Shown here: one piece after another, positions 3,498 through 19,530 of the stretch
How positions within the stretch are numbered: position 1 is the stretch's first letter
Layout of the letters: each line of letters starts with the position of its first letter
From: a virus
Virus record (IMG/VR): IMGVR_UViG_3300014495_000011
Location: 1-24,547 of that record
Reading direction: 5' to 3' (one strand)
Length of the DNA stretch: 24,547 nt
The notes under the pieces: generated by a model
Databases searched by the model: none
Seen by the model: only the letters and a program-made list of their open reading frames with translations
What the model was told of the DNA's origin: nothing
Program-made: the position numbers and the translations under genes

Positions 3498-5646
3498 CCA
3501 ATCCGACATCGTACAGCAGATGATCGCCGCCCTCGGCGTCTCGATCCCTGCGCTCGACACTACCATCGGTTCACCGGTCCGCTCTATCCTCGACGTGGTA
3601 GCCGAGGCTGTCGCTGAGGCCTACGCCGACCAGTACATCCTCTCGTACCAGTACGACATCTACACCAAGAGCGGTGCCGACCTCGACAACTACGTGGCCC
3701 AGTTCGGCTTCACCCGCCTGCCCGGCACCCGAGCCACCGGCTCGATCACCTTCTCTCGTACCAGCCCGGCTGCCTCGGACATCTACATCCCGACCGCTAC
3801 GCAGCTATCCGACAACAACACGCCCCCGGACACCTTCAACACCCTGACGCCGGTCATCCTCGCCCAGGGCACCACCTCGTGCTCGGTTCCGATTCAGGCC
3901 AACGTCGCAGGCACCGCTGGCAACGTAGCCGCCTCGACCATCGTCAACTGCACCAACAACGTCGTCGGCTTCTCGACCCTCACCAACCCCTCGGGCCTCA
4001 CGGGTGGTAGTGACCCGGAGAGCGATGACCAACTCATCGCCCGCTTCCTCGCCACCGTGTTCCGTAACATGTCCGGCACCGAGCCGATGTTCCTCGGCGT
4101 GGCCCTCGAAGACCCGGACGTGACCAAGGCCAACGTCATCGGCGCCGAGAAGACCTACAACGAGATCGTCCAGATTGTCGACGGCTTCGCCCTCTCGTCC
4201 GTGCAGGACTTCTTCTACCTCTACCCAGGTACTAGCGTCCTCGGCACCGACATCTTCAACGGCGACATCGTGACGCCGACCGGCGACTACACGCTCGCCT
4301 CCGAACTGGTCGACCCAGCCTCCTTCAGTCTCGGCGTGACCCCCGGCTCGTCGGGTAACTACACCGACTTCGGCACGGCCCACTACGCCATCGTCGCCAA
4401 CACGGCGGCAGGCGCTTCACTGAATTGCGCTGAAGTCACCGCTGTCACGTCGGGCGGCAGCATCAACTCCTTCAGCCTCACGTGGGACGATAACTACCCT
4501 GGCGCCATCGTGTCGTGGGACATCTACTTCGCAGCCAACAGCACCACAGTGCAGTACCTCACCACGGTGCCGGGCACGCAGACCTCCTTCCTCGACACGG
4601 GACCCCTGGGCTTGGCTGACGGCGACCCTCCGACCGTCAATAATGCTTGGACTCCTCCCATCATCAACGTCCTCAACGACACTGTGGTGCCGGACGGTTT
4701 CTACGAGCTACAGTACGACTACCTCCCGAACTGCTCCCGCAACGATCCGGCCAACGGTATCACCAACCGCATCGACATCTACGTCAACAATGAGCGCTCC
4801 GTCGAGGTCGTGCAGGACGCCCAGTGGACAGATGCCTATGTGTTCAACCACAACGCAGGCGACCCGTTCGATGTCATCAACTGGTCTCGCCTCGATGACT
4901 CGACCCCACAGGACGGCAACTACTTCATCCCGTTCGCCTTCGTGCCGGTCCTCGACATGACCAGTGGCACCCTCGAAGTCGCCAGCACCACCTATTACGA
5001 AGGTGAGGACTACTGGGTCATCAACAACATCAGCCCCTTCGGTCTCAGCCCGCAGTCGCTATCGGGCCTTGAGTGGCTATCGAGTGCCAACGGGGAGTCT
5101 CCTATCCCGAGCAACGGCGATGCCATGACCCTCGACTACGACTTCAACCAGATCCCGCAGTCAGTGCAGGCAGCAATCGCCGCTTGGTCTCTCGTCACCA
5201 CCGACGTGCAAGTCCACCAGGCGAAGGTGTACGACCTCAACGTCTACCTCGGTCTCATCATGTCAACCACCACCTACTCACAGGCCACAGTGCTCTCGCA
5301 GATCGAGACAGCCATCTCGAACTACTTCAACTCCGTCACCTTCGATGGCGTCGTGCAGGTGTCCGAGATCATCGCCCTCGTGCAGAACCTACCGGGTGTC
5401 GTAGCTGTCCGCTTGCTCACCTCTGCCGACGACACATCCGTGACCTACCCCGTCAACGATCAGTACGGTGGCACCAACTACGCCATCCAGTCTGTCGATG
5501 ACGGCAACGAGGTGCTCCTCACCTTCGCTGCAACCGATGGCTCAGTATTCCGTGCCACCGATGTATCCCTCAACGATGACACCCTCGCCGTACTGAACCA
5601 CGTGTACCTCAACTTCTACGCACAGAACACCTTCGGAAGCGTCTAG
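3481..5646 (+). CDS. Baseplate J-family (gp47-like) wedge protein
   Basis: 721 residues. The N-terminus is a typical Baseplate_J opening (SQSDIVQQMIAALG, then a conserved TTIGSPVRSILDVVAEAVAE helix). It continues with YDIYTKSGADLDNYVAQFG and the domain RATGSITFSRTSP...IPTATQLS, the central segment GTAGNVAA, and GGSDPESDDQLIARFL (about 177-192). The C-terminal ~570-670 region (AISNYFNSVTFDGVVQVSEIIA) is also family-like. The protein joins wedges in the contractile baseplate and carries the attachment surface for outer proteins. The middle ~190 residues contain an extra beta-rich segment, making it longer than P2 J (~300 residues). The only canonical upstream start in frame is GTG 3481, yet the GGAGG (3477-3481) overlaps it with no spacing. 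ATA 3490 or ATG 3520 are possible alternatives. Confidence 0.85.
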   Translation: MSPIASQSDIVQQMIAALGVSIPALDTTIGSPVRSILDVVAEAVAEAYADQYILSYQYDIYTKSGADLDNYVAQFGFTRLPGTRATGSITFSRTSPAASDIYIPTATQLSDNNTPPDTFNTLTPVILAQGTTSCSVPIQANVAGTAGNVAASTIVNCTNNVVGFSTLTNPSGLTGGSDPESDDQLIARFLATVFRNMSGTEPMFLGVALEDPDVTKANVIGAEKTYNEIVQIVDGFALSSVQDFFYLYPGTSVLGTDIFNGDIVTPTGDYTLASELVDPASFSLGVTPGSSGNYTDFGTAHYAIVANTAAGASLNCAEVTAVTSGGSINSFSLTWDDNYPGAIVSWDIYFAANSTTVQYLTTVPGTQTSFLDTGPLGLADGDPPTVNNAWTPPIINVLNDTVVPDGFYELQYDYLPNCSRNDPANGITNRIDIYVNNERSVEVVQDAQWTDAYVFNHNAGDPFDVINWSRLDDSTPQDGNYFIPFAFVPVLDMTSGTLEVASTTYYEGEDYWVINNISPFGLSPQSLSGLEWLSSANGESPIPSNGDAMTLDYDFNQIPQSVQAAIAAWSLVTTDVQVHQAKVYDLNVYLGLIMSTTTYSQATVLSQIETAISNYFNSVTFDGVVQVSEIIALVQNLPGVVAVRLLTSADDTSVTYPVNDQYGGTNYAIQSVDDGNEVLLTFAATDGSVFRATDVSLNDDTLAVLNHVYLNFYAQNTFGSV

Positions 5647-10573: not shown

Positions 10574-11362
10574 ATGACCGAGACCGTAACCCGCATCCAT
10601 GAGATTGTAGACCCGGACCACCGAACTGGTCGCCATATCCAGCGAGGTCCCATCTTCGATGCCCACGTGGCCGAGAAGACCGGCACAGCCCTGGCCAATG
10701 CCACCTACGACCGCCAGTGCGCTCCATTCGATCAGGGCAGCATCGGCTCCTGTACAGGCAACGCCTCCGCTGGCGCCCTCATGACCACCCCTCTCTTCGT
10801 GGCGACCCGTGCCTTCACCGAGGTGACCGCCGTCGAGATCTACTCCGAGGGCACCTTCTTCAACGGAACGCCGAACGACTACTACCCGCCGAACGACACC
10901 GGCTCCTCTGGCCCCGCCGTGGCGCAGGGTCTCGAAGTCCTCGGTCTCGTGTCGAGCTACACCCATGCCGTCGACCTTCAGGGCGCCCAGGAGGGTCTAC
11001 AGACCTCGCCGGGCATCTTCGGGATCTCCTGGTACACCTCCTTCGACACCCCGCTCCCGACCGGCGAGTGCCCCCTCACTCCCGGCGCCACCGTTCGAGG
11101 TGGCCACGAGATCCAGTCGTGGCAGCTTGACATGGAGAACCAGCGAGTCTGGTTCTGGCAGTCCTGGGGCGCCACGTGGGGCGGTCTCGGCAATGGCCAG
11201 TTCTGGCTCAGCTTCTCCACCCTCAACTCTCTCTTCCAAGAGCAGGCCGATGTCACGTTCTTCGTTGGCACGCAGCAAGTCAACCCCGGCCCCCTCACCA
11301 ATCCCAACGCACAGCCCGCCGCTCCTCGGACCCTCTGCCAGCGCATCAAGAGCATCTTCTAA
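10574..11362 (+). CDS. Papain-fold (C1-type) cysteine peptidase-like protein
   Basis: 262 residues, start ATG 10574 with AAGGAG at 10563-10568. The motifs follow the bacterial/phage C1 family: Gln54 and Cys60 in DQGSIGSCTGNAS (oxyanion Gln and nucleophile), His178 in RGGHEI, and the block WFWQSWGATWGGLGNGQFWL (193-212), corresponding to the usual NSWG..WG..G. At the catalytic Asn position the residue is Gln196. No signal peptide or membrane segment is visible. It is the last large gene of the tail module, so it may be a virion protein acting on host surface proteins during adsorption, or a processing protease. The substrate is not known. The Asn-to-Gln change leaves activity uncertain, since in papain this Asn only orients the His. 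Confidence 0.75.
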   Translation: MTETVTRIHEIVDPDHRTGRHIQRGPIFDAHVAEKTGTALANATYDRQCAPFDQGSIGSCTGNASAGALMTTPLFVATRAFTEVTAVEIYSEGTFFNGTPNDYYPPNDTGSSGPAVAQGLEVLGLVSSYTHAVDLQGAQEGLQTSPGIFGISWYTSFDTPLPTGECPLTPGATVRGGHEIQSWQLDMENQRVWFWQSWGATWGGLGNGQFWLSFSTLNSLFQEQADVTFFVGTQQVNPGPLTNPNAQPAAPRTLCQRIKSIF

Positions 11363-11375
11363 GGAAGGATACAGA

Positions 11376-11450
11376 ATGTCTCCATTCCTCATTCTCGTAG
11401 TCGTGGTGCTCATCCTGGGTGGCCTCGTACTCGCAAAGAAACTATTGTAA
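11376..11450 (+). CDS. 24-residue single-span membrane peptide
   Basis: ATG 11376 to TAA 11448-11450 encodes 24 residues: a short N-terminus, a run of ~17 hydrophobic residues (FLILVVVVLILGGLVLA) and the basic tail KKLL. A strong ribosome site AAGGAAGGA (11361-11369) overlaps the stop of the peptidase-like gene, which supports real translation and coupling to it. The topology predicted from charge is N-out, C-in. The role is unknown; a small lysis accessory or membrane-modulating peptide is conceivable, but nothing in the sequence proves it. Confidence 0.65.
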   Translation: MSPFLILVVVVLILGGLVLAKKLL

Positions 11451-11475
11451 CCCAAAGGTGAGCATCTGATCCAAG

Positions 11476-11610
11476 ATGATGTGGTTCTACGGCATTGTGC
11501 ATCTCGAAGAAGAGCATGATGAGGTGGAAGACCACAGCCCGGATGTCCTTCACAAGACATGGCCACCAAGAGGATGTACGAAGTGCAATCCGCATTCCGC
11601 TACTTCCTAG
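11476..11610 (+). CDS. Possible small protein, 44 residues
   Basis: ATG 11476 (or 11479) to TAG 11608-11610 encodes a short acidic/His-rich peptide (HLEEEHDEVEDH) with one CxxC (CTKC) near the end. AAAGGTGAG at 11454-11462 lies 13 bases upstream, rather far for a ribosome site. The reading frame overlaps the next ORF by 52 bases. It fills an otherwise empty 100-base gap, but coding evidence is weak. Confidence 0.25.
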   Translation: MMWFYGIVHLEEEHDEVEDHSPDVLHKTWPPRGCTKCNPHSATS

Positions 11611-11741
11611 TCACCTGGGTGGAGGAGGGTGAAGCGAAGGAACATCGCTTCTCCATGGGTCAGGCCGCTCTAGCCTTCGTCGTCCTCATGGAAGGTCGGG
11701 GCTTCGAAGTCGAGTTGACGAGGGTCACAGACCGGGTGTAA
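11559..11741 (+). CDS. Small hypothetical protein, 60 residues
   Basis: 60 residues from ATG 11559 (no upstream start codon exists in frame before a TGA at 11520; Met6 at 11574 is the alternative). The amino-acid pattern looks protein-like: a beta strand (AFRYFLVTWVEEGE), a helix (SMGQAALAFVVLMEGR), and a final strand (FEVELTRV), i.e. a small alpha/beta fold. No family was recognised, and no good ribosome site precedes it. It closes the tail-side gene block before the mobile-nuclease region. Confidence 0.5.
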   Translation: MATKRMYEVQSAFRYFLVTWVEEGEAKEHRFSMGQAALAFVVLMEGRGFEVELTRVTDRV

Positions 11742-11763
11742 GCTGGTAAGTTTGCTCCGACTG

Positions 11764-11778
11764 TGGTACCATGGTACC
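11764..11778 (+). promoter_or_regulatory. Predicted extended -10 promoter overlapping a perfect palindrome
   Basis: TGG-TACCAT (11764-11772) is an extended -10 pattern, followed 10 bases later by ATG 11783 of the GIY-YIG gene. The -10 lies inside the perfect 14-nt palindrome GGTACCATGGTACC (11765-11778). No convincing -35 is present. If this is the promoter, the nearly leaderless mRNA would begin around 11779, and translation would start at ATG 11783 rather than ATG 11771. Confidence 0.35.
11765..11778. repeat. Perfect 14-nt palindrome GGTACCATGGTACC
   Basis: The sequence reads the same on both strands, and a 12-of-14 match (GGTATCATGGTATG) occurs on the minus strand at 15352-15339, again at the start of a gene. 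It could be a dimeric regulator site covering the promoter. Confidence 0.6.
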
Positions 11779-12364
11779 CCTCATGGGACTATCACCAGCG
11801 GAGAGACAGGCTGAGATCTACCTCATCACCACTCCGGGGTACTGGTATGTCGGTTGCACTACAGTGGGGTACAAGCAACGTCTCCGTCAACATAGTGCTG
11901 CTAGTAGTGGATGTGTGCGCTTGCGAGACAAGATCCGAGAGTTGGGTCTCAAGGCTTTTACTGTCTCAGTGCTCGAAACGGTCAGAAGAGAGGATGCTCA
12001 TGAGGCCGAACTAAGATGGTACTACTACTTTCTTGATCTCAATCACGGTGAGAATCTCAACTCTCATCGTCCGGGTGCTTACCCCGAACCCACTCCCGAG
12101 CGTAATGCCAAACTCAGCAGAGCGCTCAAAGGACGAGTATTCACTGAAGCATCTCGTCAACGTATGAGCGTGGCCGCTCAAGGCAATACGAGTCACCTGG
12201 GCATAACCCACACCGAAGAGGCCCGGTATCGGATGGGTACCTTCCATCGAGCTAAGACACACTGCCCTCAACTCCACCCATATGATGATAATAATACCTA
12301 TATCACCAAGGATGGTAAGCGTCAGTGTAGGACATGTGCTCGTGAGAGAGCAAGAGCATCATGA
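11771..12364 (+). CDS. GIY-YIG homing-type endonuclease
   Basis: 197 residues (193 if ATG 11783 is used). The catalytic domain shows the two signature strands: EIYLIT (15-20, GIY position) and YWYVGCT (24-30, YIG position). They are followed by a conserved Arg (R37) and the putative metal-binding Glu in HEAELRWYYYF (77-87). Downstream are three NUMOD3-like DNA-binding repeats (TPERNAKLSRALKG 108-121, TEASRQRMSVAAQG 125-138, HTEEARYRMG 147-156). The C-terminus is a zinc finger (C165, H169, C186, C189 in CPQLHP...NTYITKDGKRQCRTC) typical of phage HNH/GIY homing enzymes. The codons are A/T-rich at third positions compared with the tail genes. Its last four bases (ATGA) overlap the SNF2-like helicase. 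It is a probable free-standing homing nuclease that spreads itself by cutting phages lacking it. Confidence 0.85.
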   Translation: MVPLMGLSPAERQAEIYLITTPGYWYVGCTTVGYKQRLRQHSAASSGCVRLRDKIRELGLKAFTVSVLETVRREDAHEAELRWYYYFLDLNHGENLNSHRPGAYPEPTPERNAKLSRALKGRVFTEASRQRMSVAAQGNTSHLGITHTEEARYRMGTFHRAKTHCPQLHPYDDNNTYITKDGKRQCRTCARERARAS

Positions 12365-13923
12365 GTCTGTGGCGAGACGAGAACCAGATGTTCCCTTTCC
12401 AGGCTACTCATATTGCCGAGGCTTACCAGAAGAGTGTTACTTTGCTTGCGTGGGACACCGGCTGTGGGAAAAGTATTGGAGCACTTGCTCTTGCTTGTTT
12501 GCAGTTGGAGGCGGGGATAATCAATAAGGTGGTCTTGGTATGTGAAGCAAACAAGATGGTCCAAGACGAGTGGCCCGCTTCTATTGAGAAGTTTACGTCG
12601 ATTGACTATCAAGTTTATCATGGTACTCCGAAGAAACGGGCCAAGATGCGCACCAATCTGCCCACGATGATCTTGACGACGTTTGATGTGGTGAAGCGTG
12701 ACGCCGCCATCTTTCCGGCCAAGAAGAACAGCCGCTCGGTCCCGACGCCCGGCCCGCTGCTCGATGTCCTCGCCGGGCAGAAGACGCTCATCATCCTCGA
12801 TGAGACCACCCGCATCGCCAACCGGTCGAGCGGCAACCACAAGGCCATGAAGCTCTTCATCGAGACGATGATGGCGGAGGCCGAGTGCAAGGTACTCGCC
12901 ATGACGGCCACACCGATGGAGCGGGACCCCTCCTCCCTCTACGACCTCGGACGTATCCTGACGCCGGACACCATGCCGACCGTCTCCGACTTCGAGCATG
13001 ACTACGTGGCGACATGGGACATCTTCCGCAAGCCCGCCCGGTACAAGAACCTCAACCCCGGCAACTGTGCCAAGGGCGTCGAGCCGTTCAGCGAGCGCTT
13101 CAACGCCATCCTCCTGCGCAAGCGCAAGACGGACGCCGATGTGGTCGACTTCTTCCCGAAGCGCCGAGAGATGCCGCCTACCTTCGTCCGGCTGGGGAAG
13201 GCCCACCAGCAGTTCTACGACACCGTGAGGGACATCGGACTGTCGGTGCCCGAGTTCGAGCAGCGCAAGTATGTGACGGTCCTCCGGCAGATCGCAGCCA
13301 ACCCCTTGAGCCTCACCCTGGCCCAGGGCGAGATTGCCCGTGCCATCGTAGACTACGTGTCCCCGGCAGGCCTTCAGGCCATGGGGTCGGCCAAGACGGA
13401 CAGGATGATGGAATGGCTCCGTACCGTGGTAGAGGAGCAGGGTGAGCAGGCAGTCGTGTTCACCTACTTCGCCTCGACCGTCCTGCCTCTCCTCAGCGAT
13501 CACATAGGAGGGTATGGGTGGACGCATTCGGTCAACAAGGGGGATATGAGCCTGACGGCCCGTAACGCCTCTATACGCAGCTTCAGGGCGGGCGAGACGC
13601 AGATCTTCCTCACCTCCGACGCCGGGGCCAAGGGGATCAACCTTCCCGAGGCTGCTTACCTCCTCCACTACGAGCGACCACCCCTCCACAGCCTCCTCAT
13701 CCAGCGGGCCGACCGCATCCACCGGATCGACTCGCAGAAGGAGTCGGTATGGATGGATAGCCTCGTGGCCCGTGACACCATCGAGGAGGGTCTGTACAAC
13801 CTCAACCTACGCCGGAACGACTGGTCCGACAAGCTCCTCGGAGACGACGAAGCAGCCGAGATGGAGTGGGTCTCTGCTGCTGACAGAAGAGCGCTATTGA
13901 AGATCGGCAAGGCGTCGTCGTGA
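12361..13923 (+). CDS. SNF2-family (superfamily 2) helicase/ATPase
   Basis: 520 residues. Motif I is DTGCGKS (32-38), motif II (Walker B) is LIILDETT (143-150), and motif III is TAT (182-184). Motif IV-like strands AVVFTYF (364-370), motif V SDAGAKGINL (419-428) and the Arg-finger motif VI QRADRIHRI (448-456) follow, the last as in Snf2 helicases. Such phage proteins use ATP to move along duplex DNA and have roles in replication, recombination or anti-defence; the specific role is unknown. The ATG lies in the ATGA overlap with the GIY-YIG nuclease, so translation is coupled. By eye, ~44 of the first 100 codons end in A/T, compared with ~4 of the 60-odd codons after residue 120, which marks a compositional boundary. 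The last 30 bases overlap the reverse-strand HNH gene. Confidence 0.85.
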   Translation: MSLWRDENQMFPFQATHIAEAYQKSVTLLAWDTGCGKSIGALALACLQLEAGIINKVVLVCEANKMVQDEWPASIEKFTSIDYQVYHGTPKKRAKMRTNLPTMILTTFDVVKRDAAIFPAKKNSRSVPTPGPLLDVLAGQKTLIILDETTRIANRSSGNHKAMKLFIETMMAEAECKVLAMTATPMERDPSSLYDLGRILTPDTMPTVSDFEHDYVATWDIFRKPARYKNLNPGNCAKGVEPFSERFNAILLRKRKTDADVVDFFPKRREMPPTFVRLGKAHQQFYDTVRDIGLSVPEFEQRKYVTVLRQIAANPLSLTLAQGEIARAIVDYVSPAGLQAMGSAKTDRMMEWLRTVVEEQGEQAVVFTYFASTVLPLLSDHIGGYGWTHSVNKGDMSLTARNASIRSFRAGETQIFLTSDAGAKGINLPEAAYLLHYERPPLHSLLIQRADRIHRIDSQKESVWMDSLVARDTIEEGLYNLNLRRNDWSDKLLGDDEAAEMEWVSAADRRALLKIGKASS

Positions 13924-14349
13924 AGCCCATGCCCGCTTTCCGTTTTCGCTGCGAGTCACTTGTTCGAGGTGCTCAGGATTGCAACAAGCTTTCACCTCGC
14001 AGAGATGATCTACCTTCAAGCCTTCCTTCAACTCGATTCCATGCAGAGTAAGGCTAAACCGATGGACCATCATGACACGACCGTTAATCATAATACTGCC
14101 ATATCCAGCCCCTATAATACATCTTGTCCAAAGCCAACAGGGAGAAGTGATACCTCGCAGAGCCGCCAGAGTATGAGCAGCAGGGATCGGACCCTCCTTG
14201 ACCGAAGACCAGAATCTAGCTCGATCATCTCCCACGATCCTAACGGGAGCTATAGGGTCTCCATGGCGCAGCCAACGGGTATGGTGTTTTGAACACCAAC
14301 CACGGGCATGGACCTTCTTGTCACATTGTGGTACCGTACAGAGTTTCAT
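13894..14349 (-). CDS. HNH homing-type endonuclease, reverse strand
   Basis: 151 residues from the ATG whose complement is CAT 14347-14349; the frame is open 29 codons further, but that extension lacks family features. The N-terminal zinc knuckle is C4, C9, C19, H22 (CTVPQCDKKVHARGWCSKHH), followed by WLRHGDP. A CWLWTR segment (71-76) precedes the HNH motif: H96 (VHRFSL), D114-H115 (VDHLC), and N124 with H127 (CCNPEHLEQV). This layout is that of phage HNH_3-type homing nucleases. It is one of only two minus-strand genes in the window, and its 3' end overlaps the SNF2-like helicase end by 30 bases in convergent orientation. It has its own predicted promoter at its start. This suggests independent insertion into the intergenic space after the helicase. 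Confidence 0.8.
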   Translation of the reverse strand: MKLCTVPQCDKKVHARGWCSKHHTRWLRHGDPIAPVRIVGDDRARFWSSVKEGPIPAAHTLAALRGITSPCWLWTRCIIGAGYGSIMINGRVMMVHRFSLTLHGIELKEGLKVDHLCEVKACCNPEHLEQVTRSENGKRAWASRRRLADLQ

Positions 14350-14366
14350 ACCACCAAGTATAGCAC
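14350..14366 (-). promoter_or_regulatory. Predicted extended -10 promoter of the reverse HNH gene
   Basis: On the minus strand, TG-C-TATACT (the -10 hexamer reads 14362 to 14357) is 5/6 to TATAAT with the extended TGn. It ends seven bases before the ATG, so the transcript would begin at about 14350, one base from the start codon (leaderless). No good -35 is visible. Confidence 0.45.
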
Positions 14367-14423
14367 ATGTTTCATATCCGCAGCAGATCGCAGGGACCTC
14401 CTGCGCATAGGAAAGGCAAGCTA

Positions 14424-14771
14424 ATGGCAGAAGCAAGCATGACGGACAAGCTCAAGAGTCTCGTATCAGAGGCCCTCGACAAGTACAGCCATGGAGATCA
14501 GGTCGATTGGGACATCGGTTCCGGCATGGGTCCGAACAACCAACTGTTCCACTTCCTCACCCTGGTGGTCCCGAGTCCTGTGCTCGGTGAGAACATCATG
14601 GCTGGCGGTGTCATCGGTGGGGCCAACAACATCGACGGCTCTAAGATCGACACCATGGTCAACCAAGCTCTAGAGCAGATCCGTGCGGCCCGCACGCAGA
14701 AGCTCAACGAGAGCTTGGCTCAGGTTCCGGTGACGGAGACGGCGAGCGGCCTAGTTCTCCCAGGGCAATGA
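14424..14771 (+). CDS. Hypothetical protein, 115 residues
   Basis: ATG 14424 is chosen because AGGAAAGG (14409-14416) sits upstream at good spacing; the frame is open back to ATG 14367, but the added residues are not protein-like. The protein has a helical N-terminus (MTDKLKSLVSEALDKY), a beta-hairpin-like centre (GPNNQLFHFLTLVVPSPV), a glycine-rich turn, and a C-terminal helix (IDTMVNQALEQIRAARTQKL). No family was recognised. It is coupled by an ATGA overlap to the following gene. Confidence 0.7.
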   Translation: MAEASMTDKLKSLVSEALDKYSHGDQVDWDIGSGMGPNNQLFHFLTLVVPSPVLGENIMAGGVIGGANNIDGSKIDTMVNQALEQIRAARTQKLNESLAQVPVTETASGLVLPGQ

Positions 14772-17041: not shown

Positions 17042-19138
17042 ATGACCACCGATACCGTTGTAGACTTCGATTCAGCGCAGGACAACCTCGCCGCCTCCCT
17101 ACCTGGGTACGAGCGCCGGGAGAAGCAGGCCAGCCTCGCCCACAAGGTCGAGAGCCAGATCCGGGGCGACGGCGCCAGCCGCCACGCTCTGCTTCAGTCG
17201 TCGACCGGCACCGGCAAGTCCCTCGCCTACCTGATCCCCGCCATTCTCTCGGGCAAGAAGGTCGTCGTGTCCACCGCCACCAAGGCGCTTCAGGACCAGA
17301 TCGCCAACAAGGATCTCCCCTTCCTGGCCGAGCACCTCGGCGTGAGCTTCACCCACTCGATCCTCAAGGGCCGCTCGAACTACCTCTGCCAGGCCGAGCT
17401 TGCTCGCCTCGGTGAGGATGACCCGGCGCTCGCCGCCAAGATCACCCGCAAGCTCGATGAGCTTTCGACCGATGGCCACGGCCAGAGCTTCCCCGCAGGA
17501 CTCTACGCCGAGGAGACCGACCTCGACGTGACGCCGGTCGAGTTCAGGAAGGTGACCATCGGCTCCGGCGACTGCCCCGGCAAGGCGCAGTGCCCCTTCG
17601 GTGAGACCTGCTTCAGCGAGTTCGCCAAGGCAGACGCCAAGGCTGCTCAGGTGGTTGTGGTCAACCACGCTCTCCTCTGCACCGACCTCTGGCTCGATGA
17701 GATCACGGGCGGCAAGGCTTCGATGCTCGGTGACTACGAGGTGCTCATCGTGGACGAGGCGCACGAACTGACCGACTACGCCACGAACGTGTGGGGCGTG
17801 ACTCTTCGGGAGCACACCCTCAAGAGCCTGGGCGAGGAGGCCACCACCTTCTTCGGGAAGATCGGCTCGAAGGATGCCAAGGAGTTCGCTCGCCAGAACG
17901 ATGCCTACGCCATCCTCATCTCGGACCTGTGGGCCAAGCTCGAAGTGGGTCGGCTGCGGTTCACCGACATCATCGAGTTGGGCGACGACCTCGTGCGGAT
18001 CAACTCGGCGCTGGTCGACATGAAGAACCTGGTGCAGGCTCAGGGCCAGCGCATCGACAACGGAGAGCGTGACGCCAAGGCTGTCGCTTCCCTCAAGGGT
18101 TCCTACAACCGCCTCATCCGCCGCTTCGGCAATGCCACCGAGAGCATCGCCGCTCTGGTGACCGCCGACGAGGAGAACGTGAAGTTCGTGGAGGAGGAGA
18201 CCAAGAAGTTCCGGGGCAAGAGCCAGACCACCAAGGTGATCCAAGCCCTCCCCGTGGAGATGGGACAGATCCTCGACCGGGCGCTGTGGGCCGACAATCG
18301 GACCTGCCGCAACTGCAACGGCACGGGCACCGAGGAGAACCTCAAGGTCTGCTTCCGCTGCGGAGGCTCAGGCCACAAGGTGAACATCTCCTCGCTGCTC
18401 CTCTCGGCCACGCTGACGACGGACGGTGGCAGCTTCGACTACTGCGCCAAGCAGCTTGGCCTCGCTACCTACGAGACCTTCGATGTCGGCACCCCGTTCG
18501 ACTTCCAGAACCAGGCGCAACTCTACATCCCGAGCCATCTCCCCGAGCCGACTCCGGCCAACCGGGAGACCTGGGCCTCGATGAGCATCGCTGAGATCGG
18601 AGACCTCATCAATGCCAGCGACGGACGGGCGCTCGTGCTCTTCACCTCGACCAAGCAGATGAAGGCGGCTTACGATCACCTCTCTCCCCGGCTCCCCTAT
18701 ACCTGCCTCGTGCAGGGCAACGGGACCAACAAAGAGCTTGCCCGGATCTTCACCGAGGATGAGCACTCCGTGCTCTTCGCCACCAAGAGCTTCATGACTG
18801 GTGTCGACTTCCAGGGGTCCACCTGCTCGCTGGTCATCATCGACAAGCTCCCCTTCGCAGTCCCCACCGATCCGATTGTGGAGGCCCGGTGCGAACTGAT
18901 CGAGAAGAGGGGTGGCAACACCTTCGCTGACTTCCAGGTGCCCATGATGACACTGATCCTTCAGCAGGCCTTCGGTCGGCTCATCCGCCACGGCAACGAT
19001 GCCGGTGTGGTCGCCATCCTCGACCGTCGCCTCACCACCAAGGGCTACGGCAAGAAGATCGTCGCCAGTCTCCCCGACGCCCCGCTCGTCCAGACCATCG
19101 AAGAGGTCCAGGGCTTCTTCGAGAAGGTGAGCGCATGA
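17042..19138 (+). CDS. DinG/XPD-type Fe-S helicase with a DnaJ-like zinc finger insert
   Basis: 698 residues. Superfamily 2 motifs: STGTGKS (54-60, Walker A), VDEAH (237-241, motif II), SATL (455-458, motif III) and QQAFGRLIRH (641-650, motif VI). Cysteines C116, C178, C184 and C190 (DCPGKAQCPFGETC) sit between motifs I and II, where DinG/XPD enzymes hold a 4Fe-4S cluster; NHALL (208-212) follows, as in the family. An extra CRNCNGTG...CFRCGGSG module (422-444) is a DnaJ-type zinc finger just before motif III. Such helicases unwind DNA 5' to 3', often at forks or R-loops. No SD is present; the predicted promoter makes the message leaderless. The stop overlaps the endonuclease VII-type gene (ATGA). 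Confidence 0.85.
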   Translation: MTTDTVVDFDSAQDNLAASLPGYERREKQASLAHKVESQIRGDGASRHALLQSSTGTGKSLAYLIPAILSGKKVVVSTATKALQDQIANKDLPFLAEHLGVSFTHSILKGRSNYLCQAELARLGEDDPALAAKITRKLDELSTDGHGQSFPAGLYAEETDLDVTPVEFRKVTIGSGDCPGKAQCPFGETCFSEFAKADAKAAQVVVVNHALLCTDLWLDEITGGKASMLGDYEVLIVDEAHELTDYATNVWGVTLREHTLKSLGEEATTFFGKIGSKDAKEFARQNDAYAILISDLWAKLEVGRLRFTDIIELGDDLVRINSALVDMKNLVQAQGQRIDNGERDAKAVASLKGSYNRLIRRFGNATESIAALVTADEENVKFVEEETKKFRGKSQTTKVIQALPVEMGQILDRALWADNRTCRNCNGTGTEENLKVCFRCGGSGHKVNISSLLLSATLTTDGGSFDYCAKQLGLATYETFDVGTPFDFQNQAQLYIPSHLPEPTPANRETWASMSIAEIGDLINASDGRALVLFTSTKQMKAAYDHLSPRLPYTCLVQGNGTNKELARIFTEDEHSVLFATKSFMTGVDFQGSTCSLVIIDKLPFAVPTDPIVEARCELIEKRGGNTFADFQVPMMTLILQQAFGRLIRHGNDAGVVAILDRRLTTKGYGKKIVASLPDAPLVQTIEEVQGFFEKVSA

Positions 19139-19530
19139 CGGCCCGTCTTGATGGAACCCGAACCGAGAAGAGATGCGCCACCTGTAGGAGGACGCTTGCC
19201 CTGGATGAGTTTGGGAAGGATAGGACCACTCCCGATGGGCTGAAGTGTTACTGCGTAGAGTGTCTTCGCAAGAAGTATCGAGTGTGGGACTTGCATAAGA
19301 AAGGACTCACTGTCGCTGAGTACGATGAGATCTGGAATCGTCAGGGACAGAAGTGTGGCTTGTGCGGAGATGCGACAACAACAGGTAGAGGTTGGCATGT
19401 CGATCATAACCATGAGTCTGGTAAGATTAGAGGCATCGTCTGTCATAACTGCAACCTCGGGCTAGGTCACTTCAGAGATAATCCTGACTTCTTGCGCAAG
19501 GCGATTGAATATCTCAAGGTAGTGACATGA
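19135..19530 (+). CDS. Endonuclease VII-type HNH nuclease
   Basis: 131 residues, ATG 19135 in an ATGA overlap with the helicase. The core CGLCGD (C74, C77), WHVDHNH (87-93) and GIVCHNCNLGLGHF (C103, C106, N107) is the His-Asn-His/zinc arrangement of the phage endonuclease VII family, which resolves branched DNA. An N-terminal zinc ribbon (C14, C17, C40, C43) is also present, as in many phage relatives. Residues 112-128 form the closing helix (HFRDNPDFLRKAIEYL). Its codons are visibly richer in A/T at third positions than the helicase before it, so horizontal arrival is likely. It could be a resolvase coupled to the helicase or a mobile HNH enzyme; the sequence does not decide. Confidence 0.8.
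   Translation: MTARLDGTRTEKRCATCRRTLALDEFGKDRTTPDGLKCYCVECLRKKYRVWDLHKKGLTVAEYDEIWNRQGQKCGLCGDATTTGRGWHVDHNHESGKIRGIVCHNCNLGLGHFRDNPDFLRKAIEYLKVVT

Follow-up and report, generated by a model that had tools for sequence, protein, structure and literature searches.

Probable invasion of a phage SNF2-like helicase gene at both ends by putative free-standing homing nucleases

Selfish nucleases that replace the end of the gene beside which they sit have been described in fungi. In Torulaspora and Lachancea yeasts, each arrival of a WHO element replaces the 3' end of FBA1 and pushes the old end downstream, and a WHO protein has been shown experimentally to cut FBA1 in an allele-specific manner (Coughlan et al. 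2020, PMC7282813). The mORFs of fungal mitochondria, described for atp6, atp9, cox2 and nad3 of Glomus and for atp6 of Allomyces (Beaudet et al. 2013, PMC3630166), have a similar organisation: a foreign C-terminus is in use, followed by a nuclease ORF and, downstream, the native C-terminus. The free-standing nucleases SegF, SegG and MobE of T4-like phages usually occupy intergenic positions, with cut sites hundreds to thousands of bp distant (PMC2988022). In the portions consulted of the accounts of mycobacteriophage Cluster J HNH insertions (PMC3706429) and phage HEG boundaries (PMC10448857), such insertions are precise, have disturbed flanks and are a proposed source of gene mosaicism; those same portions contain no case of a gene end being replaced and its native counterpart left stranded. 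Full-text searches of the open-access literature found no report of WHO-type elements in phages, which does not establish priority.

Here we analyse a 24,547-nucleotide IMG/VR virus record (IMGVR_UViG_3300014495_000011, hereafter the window) in which an SNF2-like helicase gene (Pfam; 12361-13923) is flanked by two nuclease genes. Like the two contigs compared with it, L003 and L004, the window is a metagenomic assembly. L003 (IMGVR_UViG_3300025862_000018) has the same gene neighbourhood without the GIY-YIG and HNH genes, and is the sole empty-site relative known for the window; its record is a fragment, in which a search found no match to the right part of the window. At the level of sequence, alignment with L003 shows foreign tracts, insertion junctions and a stranded gene end, as follows.

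11771 to 12364, plus strand: GIY-YIG nuclease ORF with a NUMOD3 motif (NUMOD3, 1.4e-6; TIGR01453), absent from L003
11783 to 11790, plus strand: original helicase start ATGGGACT (codons 1-2 and part of codon 3), placed by homology to L003 and now serving the GIY-YIG ORF as an in-frame start
12361 to 12697, plus strand: low-GC3 5' part of the helicase gene (codons 1 to ~112), read as foreign from a GC3 change point and an identity breakpoint against L003
12698 to 13865, plus strand: native helicase body, 84% nucleotide identity to L003
13866 to 14369, no strand assigned: 504-bp insertion relative to L003 (junction between L003 5505 and 5506), comprising the 3' cap and the HNH gene
13866 to 13923, plus strand: foreign 3' cap, the copy in use (codons ~503-520 and stop), matching L003 at 30/56 nt and the stranded copy at 29/56
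13894 to 14349, minus strand: HNH_3 nuclease gene (Pfam HNH_3, 3.5e-10)
14370 to 14424, plus strand: stranded native helicase 3' end (DFISAADRRDLLRIGKAS, then stop), outside the present gene, matching L003 5506-5561 at 50/56 nt

Judged on these alignments, the 3' event, with its HNH gene, foreign cap and stranded end, is clearer evidence for a mechanism than the 5' event. The cap in use is only 54% identical to L003, as against 89% for the stranded end, after which native downstream DNA resumes, such that no native sequence has been lost on this side. Window-L003 identity drops again over the last ~18 helicase codons, and within this cap the two genes use identical codons at just 2 of 13 shared residues (p=0.001). 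The cap is in frame with the body, making the helicase a chimera of native body and foreign 3' end with its reading frame intact, and the HNH gene overlaps it tail to tail by 30 nt. The window's HNH copy is present in one assembly only. Gene callers will stretch the gene that follows the stranded end upstream to 14367, through 14367-14424; by comparison with L003 its true start is 14424, where it overlapped the former helicase stop as TAATG. The HNH insertion broke this coupling.

The HNH side thus presents a chimeric gene, a stranded old 3' end and, in L003, a nuclease-free allele, as do WHO elements and mORFs. As with WHO, a nuclease lies beside its target gene, whose 3' end has been replaced and whose old 3' end persists as a fragment beyond the nuclease, with no splicing; WHO nucleases may take either orientation, and the HNH gene is on the strand opposite the helicase. 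The window differs from WHO in its phage setting, in carrying an HNH_3 nuclease rather than an intein-like nuclease with a zinc finger, in having a far shorter cap, of 18 codons, and in an additional, mirror-image 5' version with a GIY-YIG nuclease, which may be new. Because Pfam returned HNH_3 and NUMOD3 only, and NCBIfam a GIY-YIG-type intron endonuclease, the window's elements would resemble WHO in their working but are not WHO elements by descent. In mORFs, the native copy is 91-98% and the inserted copy 64-81% identical to a close relative, values much like the 89% and 54% here; unlike the window, mORFs are mitochondrial, C-terminal only and in some cases in phase with the host gene, whereas the window's HNH gene is on the opposite strand. 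With SegF, SegG and MobE the window would have in common intronless homing by break repair, with co-conversion of the flanking DNA, and it has start/stop overlaps with neighbours as they do, but its insertion lies inside an ancestral reading frame and a gene end has been replaced.

At the 5' end, the helicase shows a composition step, which our analysis confirms. GC3 is 0.53 in codons 1-92 and 0.86 thereafter, codon 92 being the best change point (log-likelihood gain of 21.8, against 6.7 for the best of 300 permutations), and a scan of all genes in the window found no comparable break in any other, the next strongest step having a gain of only 7.0. An earlier note on this DNA had counted by eye ~44 A/T-ending codons among the first 100 and ~4 among the 60-odd past residue ~120. 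Both counts hold, at 44% for codons 1-100 (GC3 0.56) and 3/60 for codons 121-180 (GC3 0.95). The note was also right that the adjacent GIY-YIG gene is A/T-rich (GC3 0.48), and that the helicase motifs run unbroken over the boundary, across which the reading frame is likewise continuous. A nuclease-free homologue with the same step would have spoken against its reading of a foreign tract; GC3 in the L003 helicase is flat, at 0.74 in codons 1-112 and 0.70 after.

Divergence from L003 marks the same region. Nucleotide identity between the two helicases is 84% in the body and 55-70% in codons 1-112, the low values extending to synonymous sites and ending abruptly at 12691-12703 (codons 110-114; gain of 40.8 against a permutation maximum of 8.6), ~20 codons deeper than the GC3 step. 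At residues common to both proteins, identical codons are used at 21/69 positions in the 5' tract versus 213/343 in the body (p=2e-6); since codon identity is low even where the residue is shared, faster protein evolution does not account for the difference. The N-terminal part has six times the protein distance of the body (0.505 vs 0.085), which argues against a single phylogenetic origin for the whole gene. The earlier note had expected the first 100 codons to branch with a different donor, which they do not: in separate trees of the N-terminal part and the body, the window and L003 are sisters in both, with 100% support. As the N-terminal parts are still sisters, the donor would be an unsampled sister lineage, and searches with the cap protein, the GIY-YIG protein and the helicase in phages and viral contigs, and with the helicase also in genome contigs, found no donor for either tract. 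That it is the window and not L003 that has changed is indicated by the window's abnormal composition, by the insertions next to the tracts and, on the 3' side, by the stranded native copy. Taken together, these comparisons support a foreign origin for helicase codons 1 to ~112, adjoining the GIY-YIG insertion and differing in history from the rest of the gene. The claim that the nuclease came with the start of a donor helicase is supported in part, by the adjacency of the two; no donor lineage was found for it.

Homology to L003 (window 11735-11790 to L003 3952-4008, the L003 helicase starting at 4001) runs through ATGGGACT and then gives way to the GIY-YIG gene, which therefore lies inside the ancestral helicase frame. 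The inserted DNA spans about 11791-12360. Its ORF matches TIGR01453 (group I intron endonuclease, NCBIfam) at 5.7e-8, below the curated cut-off, and has in-frame starts at 11783, the old helicase start, and at an ATG further upstream, 11771. The GIY-YIG stop overlaps the new helicase start at 12361 as ATGA, this start being contributed by the foreign tract, and translation of the helicase would now depend on that of the GIY-YIG ORF. The layout is the mirror image of the 3' side, with the foreign 5' end adjoining the GIY-YIG gene and the native flank outside, and both the window and L004 assemblies carry it. As only 8 nt of native 5' coding sequence remain, the argument on this side rests on divergence and composition. 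The earlier proposal that the tract marks both insertion site and cut site is upheld for the former, after 11790; the latter is only bracketed, to somewhere between native codons 3 and ~112, which have been lost. By eye, neither L003 3952-4008 nor window 11735-11790 offers a Shine-Dalgarno-like sequence for the original helicase start, which is possibly leaderless; a promoter and terminator scan of 11300-14600 gave chance-level results and no support for a leaderless start.

The second assembly, L004, matches the window base for base along 6.1 kb apart from a 21-nt deletion. The missing bases correspond to window 12645-12665, in frame and inside the foreign tract, and are flanked by GATG repeats. 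At its 3' end, L004 (6075-6189, against window 13866-13910) carries the foreign 3' cap followed by AAGCTAATGAAAGTTCACG..., without the HNH gene; the DNA downstream of the cap is unrelated and reaches the contig end after 66 nt. No second source for this 66-nt tail was found in the window, nor, via its first bases, in viral contigs. The L004 end is thus either a cap-type allele without HNH, in which case cap and HNH do not always occur together, or an assembly branch, the contig end being an artefact.

We consider it probable that free-standing homing nucleases have invaded the helicase gene at both ends and replaced those ends, with no splicing out. A nuclease from a co-infecting phage would cut the helicase gene near one end, whereupon the broken end in the gene body would invade the donor helicase and copy outward, taking in the donor version of the gene end and the adjoining nuclease gene before the copied stretch rejoined the recipient at the cut. 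The outcome would be an intact chimeric gene with a nuclease alongside and a new end too diverged to be recut, and the recipient sequence outside the cut would stay behind. On the HNH side, this predicts the order seen in the alignment: body, donor 3' cap, HNH gene, stranded native 3' end. On the GIY-YIG side, it would give the mirror image of native start (8 nt), GIY-YIG gene, donor codons 1 to ~112 and native body, the former start of the helicase now serving the GIY-YIG ORF and the helicase beginning afresh at the ATGA overlap. Cutting, immunity, nuclease activity and homing of the HNH and GIY-YIG elements are what we infer from this arrangement. The single-nuclease account of the earlier note survives in its 5' part; it had missed the HNH nuclease, the foreign 3' copy and the stranded native 3' end.

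The gene ends might instead have been swapped when related phages underwent ordinary homologous recombination, the nucleases being passengers that arrived separately. Mosaic genes are common in phages, the 3' cap stands without HNH in L004, and the donor was not found, all of which would suit such an exchange; we nonetheless think it unlikely, because a simple crossover would not strand a native 3' end right behind a nuclease, both foreign tracts terminate exactly at the nucleases, and the order of cap, nuclease and remnant is repeated in two further phage sequences described below. The composition step could also be purely local, with no foreign tract, if selection were relaxed near the gene start or codon choice there were tied to expression. 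In favour of this, atypical codon usage is common at gene starts and some window genes have small steps there. These other steps span just 10-36 codons, L003 lacks the step altogether, and the sharp-edged tract diverges from L003 at both protein and synonymous level, so that, set against L003 and all other window genes, local codon bias was rejected as highly improbable.

We give still less credence to the HNH insertion being a group I intron whose splicing would connect the body of the helicase with the 3'-terminal segment at 14370. Its junctions do lie inside coding sequence, and the segment at 14370 would give back the native C-terminus, but the body already runs in frame into a complete homologous C-terminus, making the gene complete without splicing, Rfam returned no match at E up to 1, and the insertion folds no better than shuffles (z 0.19), on which grounds this candidate was rejected.

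The same layout recurs independently in other phages. In a survey of 85 further HNH loci from phages, we looked for copies of one gene end on both sides of the nuclease, with the window as positive control, whose stranded 3' end was recovered; as the survey was confined to 40-residue ends, the two firm cases among the 85 are a lower bound. In Mycobacterium phage SkinnyPete, the last 27 codons of the gp52 DNA methyltransferase have a GC3 of 0.26, compared with 0.84 for the gene, and this low-GC3 cap is followed by the HNH gene gp53 and then by a GC-rich native end matching the HNH-free phage Piper2020 at 64/72 and Sparky at 66/72. Awesomesauce (HNH gene 74; like Piper2020, a Cheoctovirus) and DocMcStuffins share this structure, and the nuclease-free relatives of the group are Piper2020, TChen, Sparky, Mao1 and Purky. 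At >=99% identity, the SkinnyPete-type cap occurs in six records only, each with a downstream nuclease ORF. The second case is an IMG/VR contig (L141) in which a phospholipase-D-like gene, named by eye, shows the same pattern with an opposite-strand HNH gene.

The HNH survey yielded no convincing N-terminal (5') cases. An apparent N-terminal hit in L141 was rejected as the antisense shadow of its C-terminal hit. A GIY-YIG gene beside the thymidylate kinase gene of Gordonia phage Sixama was not counted as a 5' case either, there being no composition step at the start. We put at about even odds the broader proposal that homing elements which swap gene ends form a general class in phages, each comprising a nuclease gene and a cleavage-resistant foreign target end, in 3' and 5' forms, of which one of each would be present on the window's helicase, the 5' form capturing the host-gene start and so placing translation of the host gene downstream of the nuclease. 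The same layout in unrelated phage genes (helicase, DNA methyltransferase and phospholipase-D-like) suggests a general route by which selfish nucleases can reside inside genes without introns or inteins, and gene-end swapping provides a mechanism by which single phage genes could become mosaic. Phages of M. smegmatis with and without the element are in culture, making a direct test feasible.

Two further loci were noted. Positions 3383-3899 of contig L133 are a weak and doubtful candidate (score 56) for an HNH gene with copies of one gene end on its two sides (LIPGVEVTRSQRLEIR / IVPGTEVTRGTRLEIK). In the window itself, for a region (19135-19530) in which no covering relative was found, an Endonuclease VII-like gene (Pfam 8.9e-24; low GC3, 0.55) has a 4-nt overlap with the end of a DinG-like helicase and is a possible third nuclease insertion.
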